39,474 nt of DNA, taken from positions 1 to 39,474 of the IMG/VR virus record IMGVR_UViG_3300042503_000840. One strand, given 5' to 3'. Positions within the stretch are counted from its first letter, which is position 1. Each line of letters opens with the position of its first letter. Of this stretch, positions 569-37,864 are shown piece by piece. The DNA is from a virus. The notes under the pieces are model-generated. The model searched no databases, was not told the DNA's origin, and worked only from the letters and a program-made list of their open reading frames with translations. The translations under genes were made by a program, and so were the position numbers.

Positions 569-1222
569 TTAAGCAACCCTAGTTGCAGGTCCCACGACAT
601 ATGCGTCAAACTCGCCATGCACACACCACATATGTGGGCCATCCCAGCGCCAAGTGCCGGGGAGCGCAAAATCCGCGTCAGACGCATACGCTCCGTTCTG
701 CCACCACCACATTGGGCTTACTACGGTGTATTGGTCTTGTGGGTAGTGCATCTGATACACACTAGTACCAACTTCGTTGGGGTAAAGATTTGCGCTACCT
801 CCGTTATCAGTTCCCTTGATGGGGAACGAAACAAGAAGGCTTGCGCCAAGCGATCCTGCCCCCGCAGTACCACCTGTGGGGCCTTGTGGGCCTTGTGGAC
901 CCGCTGGGCCTTGTGCGCCTTGTGGTCCGGGGACTTGTGAGTCTGCCCCCGTAGGACCTTGGGGACCCTGTGCGCCTTGAGGCCCCGGGACTGTTGAGTC
1001 AGCCCCCGCGGGGCCTTGTGGTCCGACAGAGCCTTGAGGTCCCGCAATCCCGTCTGCACCTGCTGGTCCCGGCGCACCGTTTGCTCCCGCTGCGCCTTGT
1101 GGCCCCGGAGGTCCCGCATCGCCTTGAGGACCCGCAGGTCCTTGCGGTCCGGGTACTAAGTCCGTGCTTTCAAGCACCGCGACCCTGCACTCTAGGTCGG
1201 CTAAGTTTCTAGTTTTGGTCAT
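569..1222 (-). CDS. Short collagen-like fibre protein
   Basis: 217 aa. Residues 1-22 look like a short trimerising coiled coil ([13 protein letters not shown]). About residues 23-122 are Gly-X-Y collagen repeats rich in GPQGPAG and GADS interruptions. Residues 123-217 form a Trp-rich C-terminal head. This head shares GTWRW and a VVGPA.RVA terminus with the C-terminus of the long fibre upstream, so the two genes carry related receptor-binding or capping domains. It lacks the N-terminal virion-attachment domain of the long fibre, so it may bind to that fibre or be a side fibre. AAGGAA Shine-Dalgarno upstream. Expressed in the late operon; the role in host recognition is inferred. Confidence 0.75.
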
Positions 1223-1249
1223 GCTGATTTCCTTGATGGAGACTGTTTG

Positions 1250-4006
1250 TTAAGCGACTCTGACTGCTGGCCCCACTACGGTCGATGGCAGTGCCCCAGC
1301 GAGTGCAGCGGTTGACGGTCCCAACCACCGCCATGTACCGGATAACAACTCCCCACCGTAACTTGAGTTACCAGCTTCGATGGTGTACGCTCGCGTGGTT
1401 GCGGCAAAATCCACATTCGGACCCACGTTCACATAAGGTGGGAGGTCAACCCTAACCATCACACACATACCAATTGCGTCATACGTGTTGGCTGCACCGC
1501 CAGCAGGACCTTGTGGGCCTTGTGGCCCGGGCGCACCATCTAATCCGTTTGCGCCAGCGGGACCTTGGGGACCCGCAGCGCCATCTAAGCCGTTCGCACC
1601 AGCAGGACCCTGTGCGCCATCCAAACCAGCAGGGCCTTGAGGACCCGCAGCACCGTCCAATCCGGCGGGACCTTGGGGACCCGCAGCACCATCTAAACCA
1701 GCAGGCCCTTGTGGCCCGGGAACTTGTGAATCTAAGCCAGCAGGTCCTTGTGGCCCGGCGGCACCGTCTAAACCATTTGCGCCAGCGGGTCCTACTTCGC
1801 CCTGTATTCCCTGTGGACCAACAGCACCGTCTAAACCAGCGGGACCTTGAGGACCAGCAGGGCCAACTTCGCCCTGTATGCCTTGTGGTCCTGCGGCTCC
1901 GTCTAATCCTGCGGGGCCTTGGGGTCCAACTTCACCTTGAATGCCTTGAGGGCCAGCGGGTCCAGCCACAGTAGAGTCTGCGCCAGCAGGACCCGCAGGA
2001 CCAACTTCGCCTTGAATGCCTTGAGGACCAGCGGGTCCCGCCACAGTAGAGTCTGCGCCAGCAGGACCCGCAGGACCCACCTCGCCTTGAAGTCCTTGGG
2101 GGCCTTGTGGTCCGGGAACGGTTGAATCAGCACCAGCGGGACCTGCGTCACCCTGCGGTCCTGCGGGGCCTACCGCGCCATCTGCGCCAGCGGGGCCTGT
2201 TGGACCTGCGTCACCTGTGTCACCTTTCGGGCCTGCGGGACCGACTGCCCCGTCAACACCCGCTGCGCCCGTGTCGCCTTTTGGTCCCGCAACACCGTCA
2301 GCACCAGCAGGACCCTGTGGACCAACTGGACCTGCGGGGCCTTGGATTGGTCCGGCATTAACCCAACCGCTCCCCTCCCAGAGCCAGAGGTCTGGGCCGA
2401 TGATGTAACCCTCACCGGGGTTTGCAGAGGCAGGGAGTTCGCTCTCGCTTTCAAGATGTCCTTTAATGACAAGACCAGCGCCATCCACACCAGCAGGACC
2501 TATTGGACCCTGCGGTCCGGGCACTGTTGAGTCTGCACCAGCGGGTCCTTGGGGTCCGATTTCACCTTGAATACCCTGCGCTCCGGGAGCACCGTCAGCA
2601 CCAGCAGGTCCAATAGGTCCGGCAGGTCCGACCTCACCTTGTGGACCCGCAGGACCCTGTGGTCCTGTCTCACCTTGTGGCCCGGGGACTGTTGAGTCTG
2701 CACCTGTTAATCCTTGGGGACCAGTCTCACCTTGTGGGCCAGTCTCACCGCGTGGGCCAACCTCACCTTGAGGGCCAGTCAGACCAATTGGGCCTGCTGG
2801 GCCTGCTGGACCTGTCTCGCCTTGTGGCCCAACCTCGCCTTGAATGCCTTGTGGACCAGCGGGTCCCGTTTCTCCAGTCAGTCCTTGAGGGCCTACGGGA
2901 CCCTGTGGCCCAACATCTCCTGTTTGACCAGTAGGACCCGCAGCACCTTGTGGTCCTGTCGCGCCCATCTCACCCGCAGGACCTTGTGGTCCGGGGATGT
3001 AAGACGCAGGACCCGCCGCACCAGTTTCTCCGGTAGCGCCTTGAGGACCCTGCTCTCCTTGAGGACCGCGTTCGCCTTGCAGTCCAGCAGCGCGTGTGAC
3101 TTCAACGAACGACACGACAGCACCCGCAGGAACCGGAGCGCCAAAGGTGACTGAGGTGGAGTCGGTTTGTTGAAAGTTCGGGGTGTAGATACCGTCGATG
3201 AAACCAATCAAGCCGCCCGCTTCGTATCCGAATGTTTGACCCGCTTGGTCTAGTCCTGTGAATACAGTCTGCCCTTCGGTTGCTGTAAACACAAAAGATG
3301 TGAGTGGTGGGCCATCAAGCGATGTCATCCCCGGAGGACCCATCGGACCCTCTGGACCTGTTGGACCGGAGACAGCGGTGAGTTCGATTACGAGCAACGA
3401 ACTGCCATCGCAATCCGTTGGCTGGGTAAGCGTGATGGTGGCGTTGTTAGTAAAAATGTAGTCATCGCCCGGAGCCAAGAGCGCACCGTTTAGGCTCACC
3501 ATCGTGGCTGACGCAACGTAGTTAAGCACCACGCCGTTCAAATCCGCGCCAGAGAAAACTGTCTGCCCAAGCGTGGACGCGAACTCCCACGTTGTGAGGA
3601 CACCGCGACCTACACGCGCATCCACATACGAACGATTAACCACGGAGGTGGCGGATACTGGAGCGCCCGTCACATTCATGTCAATGCCGGGGGGTACTGA
3701 GACAGCACCGTGTTGATAAACAAAAACAGTCTTGCCGCCCACCGTGACGCACATCGCGCCATCGGGGCGACGATACAGACCTGTTCGTGCATCGCGTGTA
3801 AAGCGCAGACCGGGGGCTGTCTCTGTACCATCAATCAGGCTTACAGGACCCACGAATGGCGCGGTGCCATCACGGGGCATACTTGCGGTCAATGCCGCAG
3901 CGATGTCATCCATCGTGGTGTTCGCCCAATCGGACGTGATGGTCGAGCCTGTCTCAACTGGATTACCGTCTGGAAGCGAGTACGTTCCTGCTTGATTACG
4001 TGGCAT
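1250..4006 (-). CDS. Long collagen-like tail fibre protein
   Basis: 918 aa. Residues 1-110 look like a virion-attachment domain (the 'GLRFTRDARTGLYRR' region resembles N-terminal domains of podoviral fibres). Residues 140-212 and 240-305 are two related beta-type modules, each with a '(L/E)GQTVF.G' start. Collagen-like Gly-X-Y repeats run from about 309 to 515, are interrupted by a short 'GWVNAGPIQGPAG' module (about 515-560), and resume to about 825. The last 90 residues form a globular head ending VVGPAVRVA, homologous to the head of the short fibre. AGGAG Shine-Dalgarno overlaps the end of the upstream gene. Collagen-type phage fibres are stiff trimers that carry receptor-binding tips. Repeat number could vary between relatives. 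Confidence 0.85.
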   Translation of the reverse strand: MPRNQAGTYSLPDGNPVETGSTITSDWANTTMDDIAAALTASMPRDGTAPFVGPVSLIDGTETAPGLRFTRDARTGLYRRPDGAMCVTVGGKTVFVYQHGAVSVPPGIDMNVTGAPVSATSVVNRSYVDARVGRGVLTTWEFASTLGQTVFSGADLNGVVLNYVASATMVSLNGALLAPGDDYIFTNNATITLTQPTDCDGSSLLVIELTAVSGPTGPEGPMGPPGMTSLDGPPLTSFVFTATEGQTVFTGLDQAGQTFGYEAGGLIGFIDGIYTPNFQQTDSTSVTFGAPVPAGAVVSFVEVTRAAGLQGERGPQGEQGPQGATGETGAAGPASYIPGPQGPAGEMGATGPQGAAGPTGQTGDVGPQGPVGPQGLTGETGPAGPQGIQGEVGPQGETGPAGPAGPIGLTGPQGEVGPRGETGPQGETGPQGLTGADSTVPGPQGETGPQGPAGPQGEVGPAGPIGPAGADGAPGAQGIQGEIGPQGPAGADSTVPGPQGPIGPAGVDGAGLVIKGHLESESELPASANPGEGYIIGPDLWLWEGSGWVNAGPIQGPAGPVGPQGPAGADGVAGPKGDTGAAGVDGAVGPAGPKGDTGDAGPTGPAGADGAVGPAGPQGDAGPAGADSTVPGPQGPQGLQGEVGPAGPAGADSTVAGPAGPQGIQGEVGPAGPAGADSTVAGPAGPQGIQGEVGPQGPAGLDGAAGPQGIQGEVGPAGPQGPAGLDGAVGPQGIQGEVGPAGANGLDGAAGPQGPAGLDSQVPGPQGPAGLDGAAGPQGPAGLDGAAGPQGPAGLDGAQGPAGANGLDGAAGPQGPAGANGLDGAPGPQGPQGPAGGAANTYDAIGMCVMVRVDLPPYVNVGPNVDFAATTRAYTIEAGNSSYGGELLSGTWRWLGPSTAALAGALPSTVVGPAVRVA

Positions 4007-21972: not shown

Positions 21973-22017
21973 GCGCAACGGGCCGCGATTTGCCCGCTTT
22001 TTGGAGTCTTAAAAATG
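21973..22017 (+). promoter_or_regulatory. Hairpin-Shine-Dalgarno leader, copy 2
   Basis: The same GCGCAACGGGCCGC start (21973-21986), a CGGGC/GCCCG stem (21979-21996) and TTTTTGGAG...AAAAATG. Compared with copy 1, stem and ribosome site are conserved while the loop differs, which suggests the structure matters. Confidence 0.55.
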
Positions 22018-23397
22018 CCAGCTTTATACGCTTTCACACCTCGCAACACCCAGCCAGCAACACCTCACGCCGCGCTCTATCACCTAGGGGCCGCGCCAGA
22101 TGATTTTTTTAGATATTTTTCTAAATTAAAAATGGCCTCTGCTATGTCGCGACCATGGCACGCACGCGAACAACTCGCAGCAGAATTGCACCCTTCAATC
22201 AGTGAAATTTTGATTACGGACGCACTGCGCGAACACTTGCGCGACTGGCGCGAGATGATTTTGGAATGGCCTCACGTATCGGACGGGGACGCGCTCAAAA
22301 TTGCATACACGCGCAACGATGCGGACGGGGCCGCGGACCGCCAGACCACTACGAGCGTGGGCCGTTACATCAAGCGACACGCGCCCACAATGCCGGACCA
22401 CCTCATACGCGATCTAGTCGCGACTGTCACGCCGGATTCATTCGAGATGACTAGCAACATGGACCTAATGTTGCGGGCCGTGATTGAGGGGCCTCAGTCG
22501 TGCATGGACGGGCGCCATTTTGACGTGGCAACTGAACACCCCTACAACGTGTATAGGCCCGCGCTGGGCTGGTCCATGATGATACGGACGGACGCACACG
22601 GGCACATCATGGGGCGCTGTATGTGCCACAGTGGACACGGTACGGACGCAGGCCCGCATTTTGTACGCTCATACGGACGCGACACGCCAGACGGGTACAG
22701 CAGCACTGACCAAGGTATAGAGGCCACGCTCAAAAAATTAGGCTATGAGAAGGCCTCAGAGTGGGCCACTGGTGCCCAGCTTGCCAAAATTGCCGCGGAC
22801 GATGGCCAGCATTTAATGCCGTACCTCGATGGGGACTGTATGCGCGTCAGTGATTGCGGGGACCACTTCGAGGTATCGCATTATGGGGATTTCAATTCGA
22901 GCACTTGCGGGTACATCACCACAGAGGATCGCGTGTGTTGTGAGCATTGCAACGAGTACGTGCCAGAGGATGAAATCACGTGGACCGGATACCACGAGGA
23001 CACACGCGTATGTGATAACTGCATATGCGATTGCTACGTGCACGCCACGGGCCGCAACGGTAACGAGTATTACGTGCACGTTGACCACGCGGTAGAAGTG
23101 GACGGGGACTGGTACGTGTCGAATTACCTCAGTGATAACAACATTATCGAACTGGCAAACGGGGACTATTGCCACCTCGACAATGCCGTAGAACTTTCGA
23201 GTGGTGACTACGTGCACGTAGACGATCTGGACGATTACGTGCACCTCGCGGAGGCCGCGGACAACGGCTCTATGTACGCGGACGAATCGGACGCGTGGCG
23301 CGATGAAATCACGGGCGAGTGGTACTCACACGATACGGACAGTGTGACTGTCACAGTGCACCCAAACACGCTCGAATCCCACGCCGCACACGCATAA
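22015..23397 (+). CDS. Cys-rich protein of unknown function with zinc-finger-like centre, 460 aa
   Basis: I do not recognise a named family. Residues about 150-215 contain 'GPQSCMDGRHFD...HPYNVYRPALGWSMMIRTDAHGHIMGRCMC', a pattern I associate with uncharacterised phage proteins. Residues 308-340 carry two CxxC pairs (C309/C312 and C333/C336) that should bind zinc, and residues 338-412 contain tandem Tyr/His/Asp segments (YYVHVDHAVEVDGDWY, DYVHVDDLDDYVHL). The protein is strongly acidic toward the C-terminus. No membrane segment or signal peptide. It lies behind a hairpin leader and before the metallopeptidase gene, in a cassette between packaging and replication modules. A host-takeover or counter-defence role is plausible but unproven. 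Confidence 0.75.
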   Translation: MPALYAFTPRNTQPATPHAALYHLGAAPDDFFRYFSKLKMASAMSRPWHAREQLAAELHPSISEILITDALREHLRDWREMILEWPHVSDGDALKIAYTRNDADGAADRQTTTSVGRYIKRHAPTMPDHLIRDLVATVTPDSFEMTSNMDLMLRAVIEGPQSCMDGRHFDVATEHPYNVYRPALGWSMMIRTDAHGHIMGRCMCHSGHGTDAGPHFVRSYGRDTPDGYSSTDQGIEATLKKLGYEKASEWATGAQLAKIAADDGQHLMPYLDGDCMRVSDCGDHFEVSHYGDFNSSTCGYITTEDRVCCEHCNEYVPEDEITWTGYHEDTRVCDNCICDCYVHATGRNGNEYYVHVDHAVEVDGDWYVSNYLSDNNIIELANGDYCHLDNAVELSSGDYVHVDDLDDYVHLAEAADNGSMYADESDAWRDEITGEWYSHDTDSVTVTVHPNTLESHAAHA

Positions 23398-23405
23398 AAA
23401 AATTT

Positions 23406-23421
23406 CCCCGGGATCCCGGGG
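23406..23421. promoter_or_regulatory. 16-bp perfect palindrome before the metallopeptidase gene
   Basis: CCCCGGGATCCCGGGG in the 50-bp gap (23398-23447), flanked by A/T runs. As RNA it folds into a six-pair hairpin with a four-base loop, upstream of AAGGAAA and the AAAAATG start. It parallels the two hairpin leaders upstream. Confidence 0.6.
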
Positions 23422-23447
23422 ACAAAAAACACAAGGAAATTTCAAAA

Positions 23448-24299
23448 ATGAAAATCACTCAATCCCGCATTGATTACGTGCTGCGCTTGCTGTCCCATTG
23501 CAGGCCAGACCGCAGCAAAACAGAGGCCCGCTTTATTCGCGATTATTTGCTCTCGATCCCCACGGCCCGCGCTGATACGTTTGGCAACGTGCACCTAGAC
23601 TTGCGCACGCTCAAAAGTCACCGCACACTATTTGTGGCCCACACTGACACCGTGCACCACGCCTCAGGCTTTCAATCTGTTTATTACGATCCAGTGCACC
23701 AGCTTGTGCGAACACGGGGCCAGTGTTTGGGCGCGGACGATGGCGCGGGTATTATGGTTTTGTTGCACCTCATTCGTAACGCGATACCCGCGTATTACAT
23801 TTTTACGCGTGGCGAGGAACGAGGCGGGAAAGGGGCGCGACACCTCGCAGGCGAACAGTACAAACTACTCGAGCAATTCGATCGCGCTGTCGCGTTCGAT
23901 CGCCGCGGGACTTCGAGCGTTATCACTCACCAGTCGTACGGGCGCACGTGTTCGGACACGTTCGCGGACGCGCTCAGTGATTGCCTCAGTACGGACGCAC
24001 TCATGTACGCGCCAGACCCTACGGGCGTTTATACGGACACGTGCGAATTTATTGATTCAATCCCAGAGTGCACAAACATATCTGTCGGGTACCAGAACGA
24101 GCACACCAGTAAGGAAACGCTTTCAATCCCTCACCTGTTCGCGCTCATGGCCCGCGTGGTTGAAATCCCATGGGACGAACTGCCCACGGCCCGCGACCCG
24201 TTCGAGGCCGCGCCGGACGCGTGGACCAAGTGGGACACGGACGCGTCTACTGGCGTGGCCCTCGCGCCGTGGCGCGGGTACGACTGGGGCCTTCAATGA
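23448..24299 (+). CDS. Zinc metallopeptidase of the M20/M28/M42 (MH clan) type
   Basis: 283 aa from ATG 23448, after AAGGAA. All clan MH signatures are visible in order: H65-x-D67 (VAHTDT), D97-D98 (GADDGAG), catalytic E123/E124 (FTRGEERGGKGA), D151 (AFDRRG) and H219 (YQNEHTS). These ligate two metals and activate water for amino-peptide or amide hydrolysis in the cytoplasm. No signal peptide, so it should act inside the host. Such peptidases are not a standard part of phage cores; possible jobs are processing of host or phage peptides, amino-acid release, or attack on a defence signal. The next gene starts within its stop (ATGA). Substrate unknown. Confidence 0.85.
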   Translation: MKITQSRIDYVLRLLSHCRPDRSKTEARFIRDYLLSIPTARADTFGNVHLDLRTLKSHRTLFVAHTDTVHHASGFQSVYYDPVHQLVRTRGQCLGADDGAGIMVLLHLIRNAIPAYYIFTRGEERGGKGARHLAGEQYKLLEQFDRAVAFDRRGTSSVITHQSYGRTCSDTFADALSDCLSTDALMYAPDPTGVYTDTCEFIDSIPECTNISVGYQNEHTSKETLSIPHLFALMARVVEIPWDELPTARDPFEAAPDAWTKWDTDASTGVALAPWRGYDWGLQ

Positions 24300-24477: not shown

Positions 24478-24720
24478 CGGGCGGGCGCTCTGGGGCCTCT
24501 GGGCGCTCAGGCGGGCGCTCTGGGCGCTCTGGGCACGCTCTGGGGCCTCAGGGCACGCTCTGGGCGCTCTGGGCGCTCTGGGCGCTCTGGGGCCTCTGGG
24601 CGCTCAGGCGGGCGCTCTGGGGCCTTTGGGGCCTCAGGGCACGCTCTGGGGCCTCTGGGGCCTCTGGGGCCTCTGGGGCCTCAGGGCACGCTCTGGGGCC
24701 TCTGGTGCCCGCCTCTGGCC
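24478..24720 (+). repeat. GC-rich minisatellite with G-quadruplex motif
   Basis: About 240 bp of near-tandem units, mostly nine bases (GGGCGCTCT, GGGGCCTCT) mixed with 12-15-base variants such as CTCAGGGCACGCTCTGG (three or more copies). Most units are multiples of three, so several frames stay open. Four GGGG tracts separated by CCTCT loops lie at 24648-24678, a textbook G-quadruplex pattern on the plus strand. No gene is convincing here. The array lies in the gene-free stretch 24452-24959. Confidence 0.85.
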
Positions 24721-24861: not shown

Positions 24862-24913
24862 CCAAGGCAAATTTCCAGAAATTTTGACCAAGGCAAAAAC
24901 CCAGAAATTTTGG
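24862..24913 (+). repeat. Two tandem 26-bp iterons
   Basis: CCAAGGCAA-(4 nt)-CCAGAAATTTTG occurs twice back to back (24862-24887 and 24888-24913), differing mainly in the four-base spacer. They lie in the AT-rich end of the gene-free stretch, 47 bp before the 89-aa gene. Tandem iterons next to AT-rich DNA are a common feature of replication origins and of operators; either is possible. Confidence 0.65.
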
Positions 24914-24959: not shown

Positions 24960-25229
24960 ATGGACTACCTCAAAGGCTTTGCCACCATCCACTTGGACGC
25001 AAACCCACTAGACTATTGCACGAGCATCCCCGCTACTGCCAAGTGCTTAGGGGTCATCACGATGGGGTCAACCGCCCCCGGCGCTCTGCTCTACTTCCCC
25101 ACCCCCATCACCGACAACCGAGGCGACACCTACCCCTTCCAACTCCGCGCCTTGGTGGGCGACACCATGTACCGCTTACCGATGAGCAAAGTGCTCAAAG
25201 CGCTGCGCGAGGCGGGCGTGGAAATTTAA
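24960..25229 (+). CDS. Hypothetical protein, 89 aa
   Basis: Starts at ATG 24960 after AAGGA. The product (LDYCTSIPATAKCLGVITMGSTAPGALLYFPTPITDNRGDTYPFQLRALVGDTMYRLPMSKVLKALREAGVEI) has a mixed beta/alpha pattern, no membrane span, and codon use like the other cytoplasmic genes rather than the GC-rich array before it. Its last four bases overlap the stop of the opposite-strand Cys protein gene, so the two are convergent. It could be a small regulator or inhibitor. I do not recognise it. Confidence 0.55.
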   Translation: MDYLKGFATIHLDANPLDYCTSIPATAKCLGVITMGSTAPGALLYFPTPITDNRGDTYPFQLRALVGDTMYRLPMSKVLKALREAGVEI

Positions 25230-25573
25230 CGGAAGTGTTTGAGGTGCGCCCACACCATTTCGTTTCTGATTTTTGGGGAGCCACCGCCAAGTTTATGCTT
25301 ACCGCACCTTGGCACTCTTTGCGGTAGGTACTCAAGCGGGGGTCCCGTCATATCGTAGGTGTCCTGCGCACAAACTTCACAGACACTTCGCCATATTCGA
25401 TACGTTCTAGTTTTCTTATCTTTGCACGTGTGCGTGGTCACACCCAAATCTAACCAGTGGTATTGCACCGCCCCCTTCTCTGGGTGTAGAGCCGCTACCG
25501 AAACTTGCCGGGGCGCGGCGGGCGACCCGTGTAAAGTTTTACCAGCCTCATTTTCTATCTCTTTTTGCAACAT
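25226..25573 (-). CDS. Small Cys/His protein downstream of the primase gene, 115 aa
   Basis: Last gene of the leftward primase block. Possible metal ligands are C50, C65-x2-C68 and C90-x2-H93, suggesting a zinc-binding fold; the sequence is otherwise basic and of unknown family. The ATG lies inside a TTGCAACAT repeat (25565-25573 on the plus strand), one of about seven in the 170 bp upstream, so the protein or its promoter may be controlled through these sites. It could be autoregulated or bind the repeats as an initiator. Function unknown. Confidence 0.6.
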   Translation of the reverse strand: MLQKEIENEAGKTLHGSPAAPRQVSVAALHPEKGAVQYHWLDLGVTTHTCKDKKTRTYRIWRSVCEVCAQDTYDMTGPPLEYLPQRVPRCGKHKLGGGSPKIRNEMVWAHLKHFR

Positions 25574-25737
25574 AACCTTTTCCTAATTTTTATTTAACTT
25601 TCAATGCAACAATCGGTGCATTCACTTGCAACATACGGGGCACCCCTAAAAGGTGCACCCGTTTTATGTTGCAAATCAATGACTTATGCCGGAAGTGCAA
25701 CATTGCAATGTTGCAACCCAATGTTGCAATGTTGCAT
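25565..25737. repeat. Array of TTGCAACAT/ATGTTGCAA repeats with a 20-bp palindrome
   Basis: ATGTTGCAA or its complement occurs at 25565-25573, 25626-25634, 25666-25674, 25708-25716 and 25721-25729, with near copies at 25604-25612, 25695-25703 and 25729-25737. TGCAACATTGCAATGTTGCA (25696-25715) is a perfect 20-bp palindrome. Together they fill the gap between the primase gene end and the Cys-protein start. They look like binding sites for one DNA-binding protein, for replication initiation or repression. Confidence 0.75.
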
Positions 25738-25774
25738 ATCAACTTGTAATTATTTGCAAGTAATTTAATGCAAA

Positions 25775-27790
25775 TCACACCCCCTCCCCGCCCTCAATAA
25801 CCAAGTCAATACACCCATCAACCACCTTGAAGTACCCCTCAGTGCACAGTTCCGTAACCGCCCTTTTGACCACTTGCTTGCGGGTATCGCGCTTGCCCTC
25901 AACCTTCGGCATCCCCGCCACAATCTCATCCACGATGGCCTCTGGTTCGATGCCCGTGTTCTGGCCCAACGATGTGACGTGGTTGTAGATTTTTAAGCGC
26001 AGGCCCGTGAGGGGCTTAGAACCTTTTGCCTCATCGGCTGTGGGTGGCTCCACTACGCGACACACGGCTGAACTAATGACATTCAGATCAGCGTCCACGC
26101 CAAGCTCGACACCCTCCAAGCTGAAAAAGAACTGTTGACCGTCCTCACCGTCTTTGCTCTTGGATACCGTCAAACAGCGCACAAGGCCGTGGTCATCAGC
26201 ACGCGCAACTTCCAGTTCCACGTCCATCGCAGCCTTCATGCCCGACCAGCCACGAGCGCCACGCGTGGCATCCTTGCCTGAGTGGTGGATAATCAGAACC
26301 AAGGCCCCTGTGGATTTAGCGAGGCGCGTGGCTAGATCGAGCGCCACACCCATCTCTTTGGATTGCTCATCCGCGTCTGGTGTCACACGGGATAACGTAT
26401 CCAGCACGATGAGTCCCATCGGGATGCCTGTGGCTTGTATCCGCGCATCAATTGCGGCCTTCACACGCCGGACTTCTTCCACGTCCATGAAGTCAGGCGC
26501 ACCGTCAATGACACCGAACCATGGCGCAATGTCAGCCATATCGACGTTGTGGTGTTGCGCGTAGGCTTTCACGCGCTTGACGAACCCGCCTGCGCCCTCG
26601 GCAGCAACGTACGTGACACCGCACTGAGAGGTAGAAAGGCCGCGCCACTGAATCCCCCGGGCGTGCGCCATGCACATATCCAGCACGATGAACGACTTGC
26701 CGGAGCCACTGGCCCCATAGACCATACCCACGTGCTGCCGAGGTAAGACCCCGTACATGAGCCACTCAGGGATAGGACGTTGGGCGAACTCATCGGCTGG
26801 AATGATTTGGTAAGGAATACGGGGGGCGGCTGGTGTTGTTGACTCAAGCGGCTGGTCTAGTTCGCCCACCGACTGCGCCACCATCTTCTTGACTGTTGCC
26901 ATGGTCACAAGTTTGCCGCCCTCGCGCTTAAACGACTCCCAGACGCGCTCGATGGGCTGGCCCACGCCGTACTTAGTACCACCACGGCTCCATTCGTCCC
27001 AGAGGTTGAAACCTTCAAGAGACCCTGCTAATTCGTGGTGCAGAGCCATACCGACTTGCATCCACTTGTCGCGAGACATATCGGGATTTAATTGGGCCAG
27101 CATCGCACGTATGTCATCAGGCGCGACACCAACGATGGGTTGGTAGTCCATCAGCGCGTCACCCGTGCTCACTCCAGCACTCACCCGTCCAGGACCCAGA
27201 CGCGCAGCCACGAGCGCTTGCAACCTGTCTGTCACCGGAGCCACAAGGTCCGTGCAATCGAGCATCTCTGTATCAGGCGTGGGGCAACCCGTGAACGTCA
27301 CGTAGCCACGCGTGGAGAAAATTTCCACCCCATAAGGCTCACCGTGCGCGTCTTTAGCGTTGCCCATGGAAGGACCACGGTAAAAAGCACGGATGCCTGC
27401 GCCCGAAGGGCTGAACTCAGCATAGGTGCCCAGAATGATCTCTGCGACCTCGGGGTGGATCACACCGCCCTCAACACAGTTGTCGAAGTCAACGGCGACA
27501 ATGCCTGCACGCTCAACCAGTGCCAAGCCCACGCCATCATGGCCTCGGCGCGTGGCAGCAGCGCGGGCCTGCTCAAAGGTGGTGAGGCGGGCCAGATCAG
27601 CAGGAGCGCCCTGCTGCCCGGCTCTACGCGTACCATCAGGGTAATACGGCACCTTGCGTGGCTTGGCAGTGGGTGCATCGTTTGCGTCACGCTCGTACTT
27701 CCACGTGAGCCACAGCTTGCGCCCCCTGAGCCACGTGGGAGCGTCCACCCGCATCACGTGGGGCGATATAGTGTGCACGTTTGAACTCAT
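25775..27790 (-). CDS. PrimPol-RepA-type primase/helicase
   Basis: 671 aa. The N-terminal AEP primase-polymerase domain has D101-F-D103 (AVDFDN) as catalytic acids and the SPSGAGIR motif (127-134). Residues about 222-300 match the linker/PriCT-like region common in phage replication proteins. A RecA-type hexameric helicase (RepA-like) follows: Walker A GASGSGKS (359-366, K365), Walker B IVLDTLS (461-467) and HHSGKD (502-507). It should make primers and unwind DNA at the fork, partnering the family A polymerase made from the rightward operon. The ATG overlaps the upstream regulator stop (ATGA). Confidence 0.9.
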   Translation of the reverse strand: MSSNVHTISPHVMRVDAPTWLRGRKLWLTWKYERDANDAPTAKPRKVPYYPDGTRRAGQQGAPADLARLTTFEQARAAATRRGHDGVGLALVERAGIVAVDFDNCVEGGVIHPEVAEIILGTYAEFSPSGAGIRAFYRGPSMGNAKDAHGEPYGVEIFSTRGYVTFTGCPTPDTEMLDCTDLVAPVTDRLQALVAARLGPGRVSAGVSTGDALMDYQPIVGVAPDDIRAMLAQLNPDMSRDKWMQVGMALHHELAGSLEGFNLWDEWSRGGTKYGVGQPIERVWESFKREGGKLVTMATVKKMVAQSVGELDQPLESTTPAAPRIPYQIIPADEFAQRPIPEWLMYGVLPRQHVGMVYGASGSGKSFIVLDMCMAHARGIQWRGLSTSQCGVTYVAAEGAGGFVKRVKAYAQHHNVDMADIAPWFGVIDGAPDFMDVEEVRRVKAAIDARIQATGIPMGLIVLDTLSRVTPDADEQSKEMGVALDLATRLAKSTGALVLIIHHSGKDATRGARGWSGMKAAMDVELEVARADDHGLVRCLTVSKSKDGEDGQQFFFSLEGVELGVDADLNVISSAVCRVVEPPTADEAKGSKPLTGLRLKIYNHVTSLGQNTGIEPEAIVDEIVAGMPKVEGKRDTRKQVVKRAVTELCTEGYFKVVDGCIDLVIEGGEGV

Positions 27791-27999
27791 GCGGCCCTCC
27801 TGCCGCGCTTAGGCGTGCGGGTAATGTCATCGAGCAAGTGCGAGAGTTGGAGCGTGGTGGACCAGAAAGCGCCGCGCTGTTTGTTTGCATGAATACGATG
27901 AATCGTGGGCTGGGACACCCCGATGCGACGAGCGATTTCGCTCTGTGTGTAGCCCAGTTCGATGAGCTTATCCACCGCCTCTTTTGCCGAAACAATCAT
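27787..27999 (-). CDS. Cro-like helix-turn-helix regulator, 70 aa
   Basis: First gene of the leftward block. Residues about 13-36 form a helix-turn-helix (KLIELGYTQSEIARRIGVSQPTIHRIH). The remainder is basic and ends RTPKRGRRAA. Small HTH proteins transcribed divergently from a CI-type repressor usually act as Cro. AGGAG lies eight bases before the ATG, and a sigma-70-like promoter at 28038-28067 fits. Overlap with the primase start means regulator and replication protein are made together. Confidence 0.85.
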   Translation of the reverse strand: MIVSAKEAVDKLIELGYTQSEIARRIGVSQPTIHRIHANKQRGAFWSTTLQLSHLLDDITRTPKRGRRAA

Positions 28000-28037
28000 T
28001 GGTTAATCTCCTTTTTTATACCAATCGAGTAAACGGC

Positions 28038-28067
28038 TTTATACCATGACGAATAGAAAAGAGACAA
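28038..28067 (-). promoter_or_regulatory. Leftward sigma-70-type promoter candidate
   Basis: On the minus strand, -35 TTGTCT (28067-28062), an 18-bp spacer and -10 TATAAA (28043-28038). It would start a transcript near 28030 for the Cro-like/primase genes. TTTATACCA occurs twice (28015-28023 and 28038-28046) and may be an operator half-site. Confidence 0.55.
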
Positions 28068-28081
28068 TAAACAGACACTTT

Positions 28082-28157
28082 GGTTTAAACCCTACGATTG
28101 GCTTATACGTTAGCGTATAGATCGTGTATATTCGTATTTCTCAAGCTGTTTAAACAG
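28082..28157. promoter_or_regulatory. Candidate repressor operators
   Basis: Three palindromes lie in the divergent gap: GGTTTAAACC (28082-28091), TATACG-ttag-CGTATA (28104-28119) and CTGTTTAAACAG (28146-28157). The two outer ones share GTTTAAAC, also present as CGTTTAAACG at 21431-21440 in the late control region. These are likely sites for the CI-like or Cro-like proteins. Confidence 0.6.
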
Positions 28158-28182
28158 ACGAGTACTCTAGGAGGACCACACA

Positions 28183-28827
28183 ATGTCCAAAACCCTCGCA
28201 AGTAACATCCGCCATTTGATGACCTTGAATGACGTTAAGACTCCAAGTGAATTAGCTAGGCTCACAAAGATTGCCCAGCCCACGCTCTACCGCTGGATGG
28301 TGGAGGACGCACGAGAGCCACGGCACTCATCTTTAACACCGTTGGCGGACTTCTTTAACGTCACAGTGTTTGACCTGCTGGAGCGCAACCTAGAGACGGG
28401 CGATAAGGTCCAGATGAAGGCCTTTGTCACCGCACGGCGCGAAGTGCCACTCATGCGCATTAGCAAAGACGGTATGAAGGTCGAGGCTGCGGGCGAGAAC
28501 GATACCGTTCCAGCCATGAAAATCAAAGCCACCAGAGATATGTTCGCCATCACCGTGGTTGGGGACTCAATGGCCCCTTTCCTGCCGGGGGACTCAGTGG
28601 TAATACTCACCCCCAAACACGAAATAATCACTGGGAAAGGTATGAAAATCGTACTGGCCCGTGAGCCTGTAACCAAAGCGCTTGTGCTGCGCCGCTTGGA
28701 GCATGAGGGCGGGCACTGGTACCTGTTGCCTGAGAACGTAGTCTACGGAACCTCGTGTTTAGTGGAGGCACCGGACGTGCTTGGAACGGTGGTCGAAGCG
28801 CAAATCGTGCGCACTTTTGGTAATTAA
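28183..28827 (+). CDS. CI/LexA-like S24 phage repressor
   Basis: 214 aa with a strong AGGAGG (28169-28174). The N-terminal 65 residues contain a helix-turn-helix (TPSELARLTKIAQPTLYRWM). The C-terminal part is an S24 (LexA-type) domain with S129 in VVGDSMAPFLPGD and K165 in TKALVLRRL, 36 residues apart as expected for the Ser-Lys dyad. A possible Ala-Gly cleavage site is A103-G104 (AAGEND), though it is closer to S129 than usual. It should hold the lytic genes silent in a lysogen and be inactivated on DNA damage via RecA. The early operon lies downstream in the same direction. Confidence 0.9.
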   Translation: MSKTLASNIRHLMTLNDVKTPSELARLTKIAQPTLYRWMVEDAREPRHSSLTPLADFFNVTVFDLLERNLETGDKVQMKAFVTARREVPLMRISKDGMKVEAAGENDTVPAMKIKATRDMFAITVVGDSMAPFLPGDSVVILTPKHEIITGKGMKIVLAREPVTKALVLRRLEHEGGHWYLLPENVVYGTSCLVEAPDVLGTVVEAQIVRTFGN

Positions 28828-36435: not shown

Positions 36436-36790
36436 ACAATTTCATCGGCTCTCAGAGGTGGCCCAGATCACAGGGCTGTCTTACGCCACCGTCTACGCGA
36501 TGCGCGAAAAGATTGGGACCCAACCCCCCGGCTCCCGCATTTGGCTGGTTCATCAATCAGTAATAGACGCACTTATACATTTTCGTATAGAATCAACCCT
36601 GCTATCGCCGCGGGACCGAGAGGAAGCAAAATGCCCATCTTCAAAAAACCCCAAAGCAACATCTGGTACATCGACTTCACAGATGCAAACGGCAAGAGAA
36701 TTAAAAAGTCTACTGGCACGCAAGACCGCAAAGCAGCACTCGAACTCCACGACAGACTTAAAGCTGATGCGTGGCGGGAAAGCAAGCTAG
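36428..36790 (+). CDS. Excisionase-like helix-turn-helix protein overlapping integrase
   Basis: 120 aa from ATG 36428. The first 45 residues (RLSEVAQITGLSYATVYAMREKIGTQPPGSRIWLV) form a MerR/AlpA-type helix-turn-helix like those of excisionases. Beyond about residue 68 it runs in another frame over the first 160 bases of the integrase gene, and its composition becomes polar and atypical, so the functional protein may be mainly the N-terminal half. Excisionases bend attP DNA and switch integrase to excision. Overlap with integrase would couple their translation. The call is probable, not certain. Confidence 0.65.
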   Translation: MTKQFHRLSEVAQITGLSYATVYAMREKIGTQPPGSRIWLVHQSVIDALIHFRIESTLLSPRDREEAKCPSSKNPKATSGTSTSQMQTARELKSLLARKTAKQHSNSTTDLKLMRGGKAS

Positions 36791-37677
36791 GCGAAACGCC
36801 AGACCACACTTTTGATGAACTTGCTGTGAAGTACCTACGCTCTGAACTAGGCAGCAAATACTACCGCAGCAAGTGCACCATGGTGGAATATTGGCTGACT
36901 CAATTCTCAGGTCGTGGCTTACGCTCTTTAACAACCAGTGTCATCAAAACGGCCCTGCCTACGACCCTACAAGTCGAACGGCTGGCCTCGCGCAAAATGT
37001 CCACGGCTACGCAAAACAGATACCTGTCTTGCATCAACCGGATGTTGACTATGGCGGTCGAACTTGAGTGGCTGGTCAACAACCCGAAACTCAAGATGGG
37101 CCGTGAGCCAAAAATCAACGTGCGCTGGATTACGTCCTTGGAGGCTCAAAAACTTCTGGACTGCGCCCAAGACAAGCCATGGCTCTACAACATCATCCGC
37201 TTTGCTCTGGCGACTGGGTGCAGGGCTGGTGAGATTACGAGCCTTGAGTGGTCAAGCGTTGATATGGATGCGGGCCACGCGTGGATTAACGCCGATAAGG
37301 CTAAGTCTGGGTACTCAAGGGGCGTGCCTCTGAACAGTGAGGCCATCGCCTCCATGCGAGGCAGGCCACGCACGGGTCGGGTGTTCCTCGGGTCCACGGG
37401 TAACGAACTTGGCGAGATCAGCCGCAAGGCGTTTCAAAAGGCGTGCGCCGATGCTGGAATCGAGAATTTTAGGTTCCACGATTTGCGCCACACGTGGGCA
37501 AGTTGGCACGCGCAAAAAGGCACGCCATTGATGGCACTTAAAGAGCTTGGAGGCTGGGAGGATGTCACGATGGTTCAGAAGTATGCACACATGGGGGCGA
37601 GTCATTTGGCGGACTATGCCACCAATGTCCTCTTTTCGTCCCACCCTGCTTCTGTCACTTTACTCAAATCGGCCTGA
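36631..37677 (+). CDS. int: Tyrosine-family phage integrase
   Basis: 348 aa from ATG 36631, chosen over an in-frame start at 36541 because GAGGAAG lies at the right distance and the arm-binding domain begins at once (PIFKKPQSNIWYIDFTDANGKRIKKSTGT). A SAM-like core-binding domain follows (about 60-155), then the catalytic domain: R198 (GCRAGE), K225 region, H283-x2-R286 (FHDLRHT), W309 (GGWE) and Y318 (KYAHMG). It recombines attP with a host attB, here apparently a tRNA gene whose 3' half lies just downstream. All catalytic residues are present, so the phage should be able to integrate. Confidence 0.95.
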   Translation: MPIFKKPQSNIWYIDFTDANGKRIKKSTGTQDRKAALELHDRLKADAWRESKLGETPDHTFDELAVKYLRSELGSKYYRSKCTMVEYWLTQFSGRGLRSLTTSVIKTALPTTLQVERLASRKMSTATQNRYLSCINRMLTMAVELEWLVNNPKLKMGREPKINVRWITSLEAQKLLDCAQDKPWLYNIIRFALATGCRAGEITSLEWSSVDMDAGHAWINADKAKSGYSRGVPLNSEAIASMRGRPRTGRVFLGSTGNELGEISRKAFQKACADAGIENFRFHDLRHTWASWHAQKGTPLMALKELGGWEDVTMVQKYAHMGASHLADYATNVLFSSHPASVTLLKSA

Positions 37678-37761: not shown

Positions 37762-37864
37762 ACCCCAAGAGTAGCATAAACATTACGTCTAGCGGCGATA
37801 GCACCCGCTAACTGTTTATGCCCTTTTGGGGTCTTTTTATGCCCTTTTTGGGGTGTTTATGTCC
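37762..37864. repeat. Candidate integrase arm-type sites
   Basis: GTTTATGCCCTTTTGGGGT (37814-37832) and TTTATGCCCTTTTTGGGGT (37836-37854) are direct repeats, followed by a partial GTTTATGTCC (37855-37864). ACCCCAAGAGTAGCATAAAC (37762-37781) is an inverted imperfect copy on the core side. Between them is an AGCGG...CCGCT hairpin. Repeats flanking a tRNA core on the integrase side fit arm-type binding sites. The T-runs could also terminate transcription from either direction. Confidence 0.65.

Follow-up and report, generated by a model that had tools for sequence, protein, structure and literature searches.

Several described replicons resemble the locus analysed here. In Sulfolobus pRN1, which encodes the PrimPol ORF904, a 100-nt stem-loop located downstream of the PrimPol gene serves as the origin and is necessary and, together with the replication operon, sufficient; it has no iterons, and no specific binding to it was detected (PMC4234260). 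A similar stem-loop has been proposed 3' of a PrimPol-PriCT_2 protein in Bordetella phage BIP-1, and the alpha protein of P4 unites primase, helicase and a C-terminal winged helix in one protein that binds origin repeats (PMC4234260). The work on pRN1 did not settle what sequence is recognised by a PrimPol initiator at the origin (PMC4234260), and the phage family described here offers a concrete, testable answer, consisting of an iteron word, of constant spacing around a stem-loop, and of a single recognition-helix residue that tracks one base in about 50 phages. In the open-licence literature, we found no description of such an iteron and stem-loop arrangement beside a PrimPol-RepA initiator.

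The window, by which we mean the whole stretch of DNA analysed, is an IMG/VR virus record of 39,474 bases. Along its minus strand lie, in order, a cro-like gene, a gene for a 671-aa primase, a repeat array directly 3' of it, and a gene for a Cys-containing protein. The features of this locus are as follows.

25226–25573, minus strand: 115-aa Cys-containing protein, its ATG overlapping the outermost repeat (ORF list).
25566–25736, minus strand: TGCAAC iteron array, a candidate replication origin (repeat counts, palindrome, site layout).
25574–25620, no strand: AT-rich distal flank, 30% GC (composition).
25639–25659, minus strand: apex of a GC-rich stem-loop inside the array, GGTGCACCTTTTAGGGGTGCC on the minus strand (fold, comparison with the relative L007).
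25696–25715, no strand: 20-bp perfect palindrome TGCAACATTGCAATGTTGCA, two iteron copies back to back (palindrome search).
25737–25775, no strand: AT-rich primase-side flank, 20% GC, holding ACTTGCAAATAATTACAAGTTGA (composition, comparison with L007).
25775–27790, minus strand: PrimPol, PriCT_2, RepA-like helicase and C-terminal winged helix in one protein of 671 aa, the proposed initiator (domain, profile and structure matches).
25787–25883, minus strand: predicted recognition helix and wing, residues about 637–663 (AlphaFold model; coordinates reckoned from the ORF).

The repeat array claimed by the first-pass annotation is real. There are exactly five exact copies of ATGTTGCAA/TTGCAACAT (25565–25573, 25626–25634, 25666–25674, 25708–25716 and 25721–25729) and none outside 25565–25729 in the whole 39,474 bp, compared to a chance expectation of 0.49; none of 100 shuffles reached five. 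The perfect palindrome and the start codon within a repeat, both claimed at the same time, were also found, the ATG of the Cys-protein (25571–25573) forming the start of the outermost copy. Nine TGCAAC cores, two of them overlapping, lie on both strands between 25566 and 25736. Relative to the hairpin apex and in primase-coding orientation, the sites stand at -85>, -77>, -64>, -50<, -22>, +19<, +41< and +80<, with the -64> site overlapped by one < core, and the apex itself is embraced by the inverted iterons at 25666–25674 and 25626–25634. For the 220 nt that follow the primase stop, the repeat-pairing score is 87, versus 7.8 in shuffles. The locus thus has several short direct and inverted repeats beyond chance and in ordered spacing, as in an iteron origin, along with flanks of 20–30% GC in a window of 55% GC, which provide the AT-rich region of such an origin, and it adjoins the gene of its putative initiator, the PrimPol. 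The GC skew of the window shows no clean V at the array, and comparing the region with GenBank phages at the DNA level gave no match.

Several other features of the window were recorded. A 22-bp direct repeat at 37815–37858, just 3' of the integrase gene (36541–37677), may mark an attachment-site region. A GC-rich tandem array with the 9-bp unit GGGCCTCTG occupies 24483–24709, and the tRNA-Gln called by ARAGORN at 24591–24682 falls inside it and is probably spurious; between this array and an 89-aa gene lies a two-copy 26-bp direct repeat (24862–24912). Several tandem repeats at 875–3079 have periods in multiples of 9 bp, a pattern also seen in collagen-like tail genes. An M28-type peptidase-like gene (phrog_4191, E = 1e-68) at 23319–24299 stands beside a gene for a 460-aa protein of no known family (22015–23397).

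One near-identical contig (L006/L009) shares 99.9% DNA identity with the window, and the closest distinct relative is L007, at 74–83%. Its array lies at the same place, the first iteron standing, as in the window, ~40 nt past the PrimPol stop, and the stem of the hairpin is kept while the letters of the apex and the arms differ. The primase-side AT-rich flank with ACTTGCAAATAATTACAAGTTGA is largely common to both and is possibly an unwinding element. L007 starts, and the contig L022 ends, inside the primase gene with an overlap; both come from one sample and are probably two pieces of one phage. The conserved pairing of the GC-rich hairpin, together with a strong predicted RNA fold (z = -4.8), would also suit a structure acting behind the primase message, either as a transcription terminator or in processing. 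We consider such an RNA element quite improbable, as the primase strand lacks a T-run behind the hairpin, Rfam returned only sub-threshold matches, and an RNA structure leaves unexplained both the direct repeats outside the hairpin and the co-variation with a DNA-binding winged helix described below.

Among more distant relatives, we collected homologs from viral contigs and bacterial genomes and read the sequence 3' of each primase. Of 90 non-redundant homologs, 40 showed significant repeat pairing (p ≤ 0.01) in the 220 nt that follow the primase stop. The first-pass annotation had proposed to seek the same repeat in relatives; the array is conserved in L007, and the arrays of other relatives often use other words. 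TGCAAC, TGCACC, TGGCAC, GCTTCAC, TGAAGC, TGTAGC, TTACTC, TGTCCC and others were found. In the 40 homologs with significant pairing, the stretch 3' of the primase is usually the most repetitive of the whole locus; an array beside the primase is absent from about half of the homologs, and the arrangement is not universal. A scan for TGCAACATTGCAACAT returned 46 contigs, two of them already known, and a first alignment-based scan of genome contigs gave no confirmed match. In 401 genomes of the host family of L077 only the known prophage was found, indicating that sequenced hosts rarely carry close kin. A further element, ACGTGCAA, lies near an A/T run and borders many iteron arrays irrespective of their word (for example in L077, L160, L171 and L286); 3' of the primase, the 8-mer was present in 30 of 62 loci versus 2 in shuffles, and it may act as an additional binding site or in unwinding.

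Many loci contain a hairpin with the apex CCC-TATA/TTTA-GGG, and spacing around this central hairpin is nearly fixed in phages with the two commonest words. In 29 phages of these classes, chosen by this apex, iterons lie in fixed orientation at -84, -76, -65, (-57), -49, -22, (+10) and +18. The -84 site is occupied in 27/29, the -22 site in 25/29 and the +18 site in 28/29, compared to at most 14, 8 and 11 phages in a random-shift control; because the list of sites was picked by eye from the data before counting, these counts describe more than they test. Since an automatic hairpin finder gave wrong apexes in many loci, geometry was counted only where the apex motif is present. The window, whose own apex does not match the pattern by which the 29 phages were picked, fits the family layout with its sites at -85, -77, -64, -50, -22, +19 and +41; its +80 copy, at the ATG of the Cys-protein, lies outside the conserved set.

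This outlying copy bears on the purpose that the first-pass annotation had assigned to the array, namely an operator, bound by Cro, by the 115-aa protein or by PrimPol, that serves to control the Cys-protein gene. The position of the ATG inside a repeat copy favours such control, and the array does look like a protein-binding array, with PrimPol among the candidates then named. Blocking of the Cys-protein gene as its main role is not supported: the gene, whose product has no match in Pfam or PHROGs, was not detected in L007 or its companion L022 (both fragments), and L007 includes the place where it would lie, the array being followed there directly by the 89-aa gene. As the array is kept in L007 without a detectable Cys-protein gene, the overlap with the start codon is not its conserved purpose, and in distant kin arrays stand beside unrelated genes. 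Cro is an unlikely binder, as no core copy is present between the cro-like and repressor genes (27990–28190), the intergenic region where a Cro/CI-type operator would repeat the same site. Control of the Cys-protein gene as the reason for the array is therefore very improbable. We propose that the copy at the ATG is an extra, lineage-specific outlying site that might block the gene as a side effect, gene control probably being secondary. On this evidence the readings as Cro operator, RNA terminator and Cys-gene operator rank below that of an origin.

The protein encoded upstream of the array contains PriCT_2 and AAA_25 domains. Its N-terminus matches the NrS-1 PrimPol (6a9w; profile E = 5e-16, profile positions 8–168) and its helicase part matches RSF1010 RepA (1g8y; profile E = 4e-10, positions 351–502); Foldseek agrees, with the NrS-1 PrimPol domain as top hits and RSF1010 RepA at a TMt of ~0.7. 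An AlphaFold model, folded from an alignment of homologs, places a recognition helix at residues 637–650 and wing strands at 654–657 and 660–663, in a block with a pLDDT of about 87–91.

The repeat word co-varies with this predicted helix. In a first set of 21 phages with TGCAAC or TGCACC, the best of 647 alignment columns for telling the two words apart was that of window residue 640, a valine in the window that lies in the predicted recognition helix. These phages yielded a rule, in which H after KRDTRKQ goes with TGCACC and R, K, V or L with TGCAAC, that was written down before the repeats of later sets were read. The rule held in 12/12 and then another 12/12 later phages (24/24 in total), with one phage of the first later set having M, counted as non-H, and the R of L311 in the second being read by eye because the pattern missed this phage. 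Over all 49 phages, H is found at position 640 in 15/16 with TGCACC versus 0/33 with TGCAAC, where the residue is R, K, V, L or M (p = 1e-11, by far the strongest association; the runner-up among 641 columns gives 3e-5); the single exception is L076, a Magnetospirillum prophage. As loci were deduplicated by shared peptides, residual relatedness remains, which makes a tree-based test the safer statistic. On a tree built without the primase C-terminus, at least 7 changes of repeat class fall on well-supported branches, and among 7 phylogenetically independent pairs, the only supported ones, the residue changed in the same direction in 6 and the opposite direction in 0, with no difference in 1 (p = 0.031). 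The C-terminal winged helix of the primase thus appears to read the repeat. Additionally, L151 and L299 have CTTCAC-type iterons 3' of the primase, with N apparently occupying the recognition-helix position in each, possibly a third specificity class.

Co-variation shows only that reader and site match and not that replication is involved, and the outermost copy overlaps the ATG of the Cys-protein, so that an autoregulatory operator, at which PrimPol on the iterons controls the downstream gene or its own message with no origin present, would account for both. We regard this as unlikely, given that the array follows the primase gene on its 3' side instead of occupying its promoter, that downstream genes vary between phages, as in L007, and that an origin accounts better for the conserved stem-loop and the AT-rich flanks. 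Judged by position and repeats only, the array might also be another phage DNA site that happens to adjoin the primase, such as one for packaging or partition; the co-varying residue belongs to the primase itself and the terminase genes are far from the array, making such a site most improbable.

The presence of the array, the conservation of its place and spacing, the co-variation at residue 640 and the predicted winged-helix fold together support the reading that the array is most likely the phage replication origin, bound by the neighbouring PrimPol-helicase via its C-terminal winged helix. It is best explained as an iteron-plus-stem-loop origin, P4-like in logic and pRN1-like in position. 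In the mechanism that we propose by analogy, the PrimPol-helicase encoded immediately upstream would bind the TGCAAC iterons through its winged helix, in two blocks made up of direct sites followed by an inverted site, and of an inverted pair embracing the GC-rich stem-loop. The bound protein would then open the DNA, either by melting its AT-rich flanks or by extruding the stem-loop, after which, judging from the domain set and known systems, the RepA-like helicase ring could be loaded and priming could occur on the exposed single strand.

We further think it reasonably likely that these loci represent a widespread, uncatalogued class of phage origin, in which a fixed iteron and stem-loop scaffold stands beside a PrimPol-RepA initiator and the word has been swapped repeatedly together with the residue that starts the recognition helix, producing many replication specificities (incompatibility types) among related phages. 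If this is true, the origins of many uncultured phages could be located from sequence alone, and the family would supply a naturally occurring set of initiators with their origins in which changes of replication specificity could be studied; the change of residue and base in step makes recognition directly testable.

Compared with known systems, the locus resembles pRN1, which shares an origin just downstream of the PrimPol gene, an initiator with a C-terminal winged helix, and a stem-loop, essential in pRN1, whose structure is kept in both while its sequence varies. The helicase of pRN1 is of the SF3 type, whereas that of the window is RepA/RecA-like, as indicated by its AAA_25 and RSF1010 RepA matches, and the window family differs in having iterons of fixed geometry and a nameable specificity residue. 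Bordetella phages BIP-1 and BPP-1 share a PrimPol with PriCT_2; no iterons were assigned to the BIP-1 origin (PMC4234260). In BPP-1 (L322), a near relative of BIP-1, TTTGCCTCG words, direct and inverted, surround a hairpin that lies 3' of the gene and is similarly flanked, but these repeats lie beyond an intervening gene, bbp28, about 465–560 nt 3' of the primase bbp29, and the C-terminus of the protein looks different from that of the window primase. The TTTGCCTCG repeat region of BPP-1 is a candidate origin in a cultured phage. The match to the NrS-1 phage primase-polymerase covers only the N-terminal PrimPol domain. P4 alpha, like the window protein, joins primase, helicase and winged helix in one polypeptide; its primase is of the bacterial Toprim type whereas that of the window is of the PrimPol (AEP) type, and the iterons of the window embrace a stem-loop. 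The oriV of RSF1010 (IncQ) shares a RepA-like helicase, iterons and short stem-loops near the site of priming, but uses three separate proteins (RepA, RepB' and RepC) where the window encodes one polypeptide that would prime at its stem-loop. P4 and RSF1010 thus share with the window system its logic and not its protein make-up.
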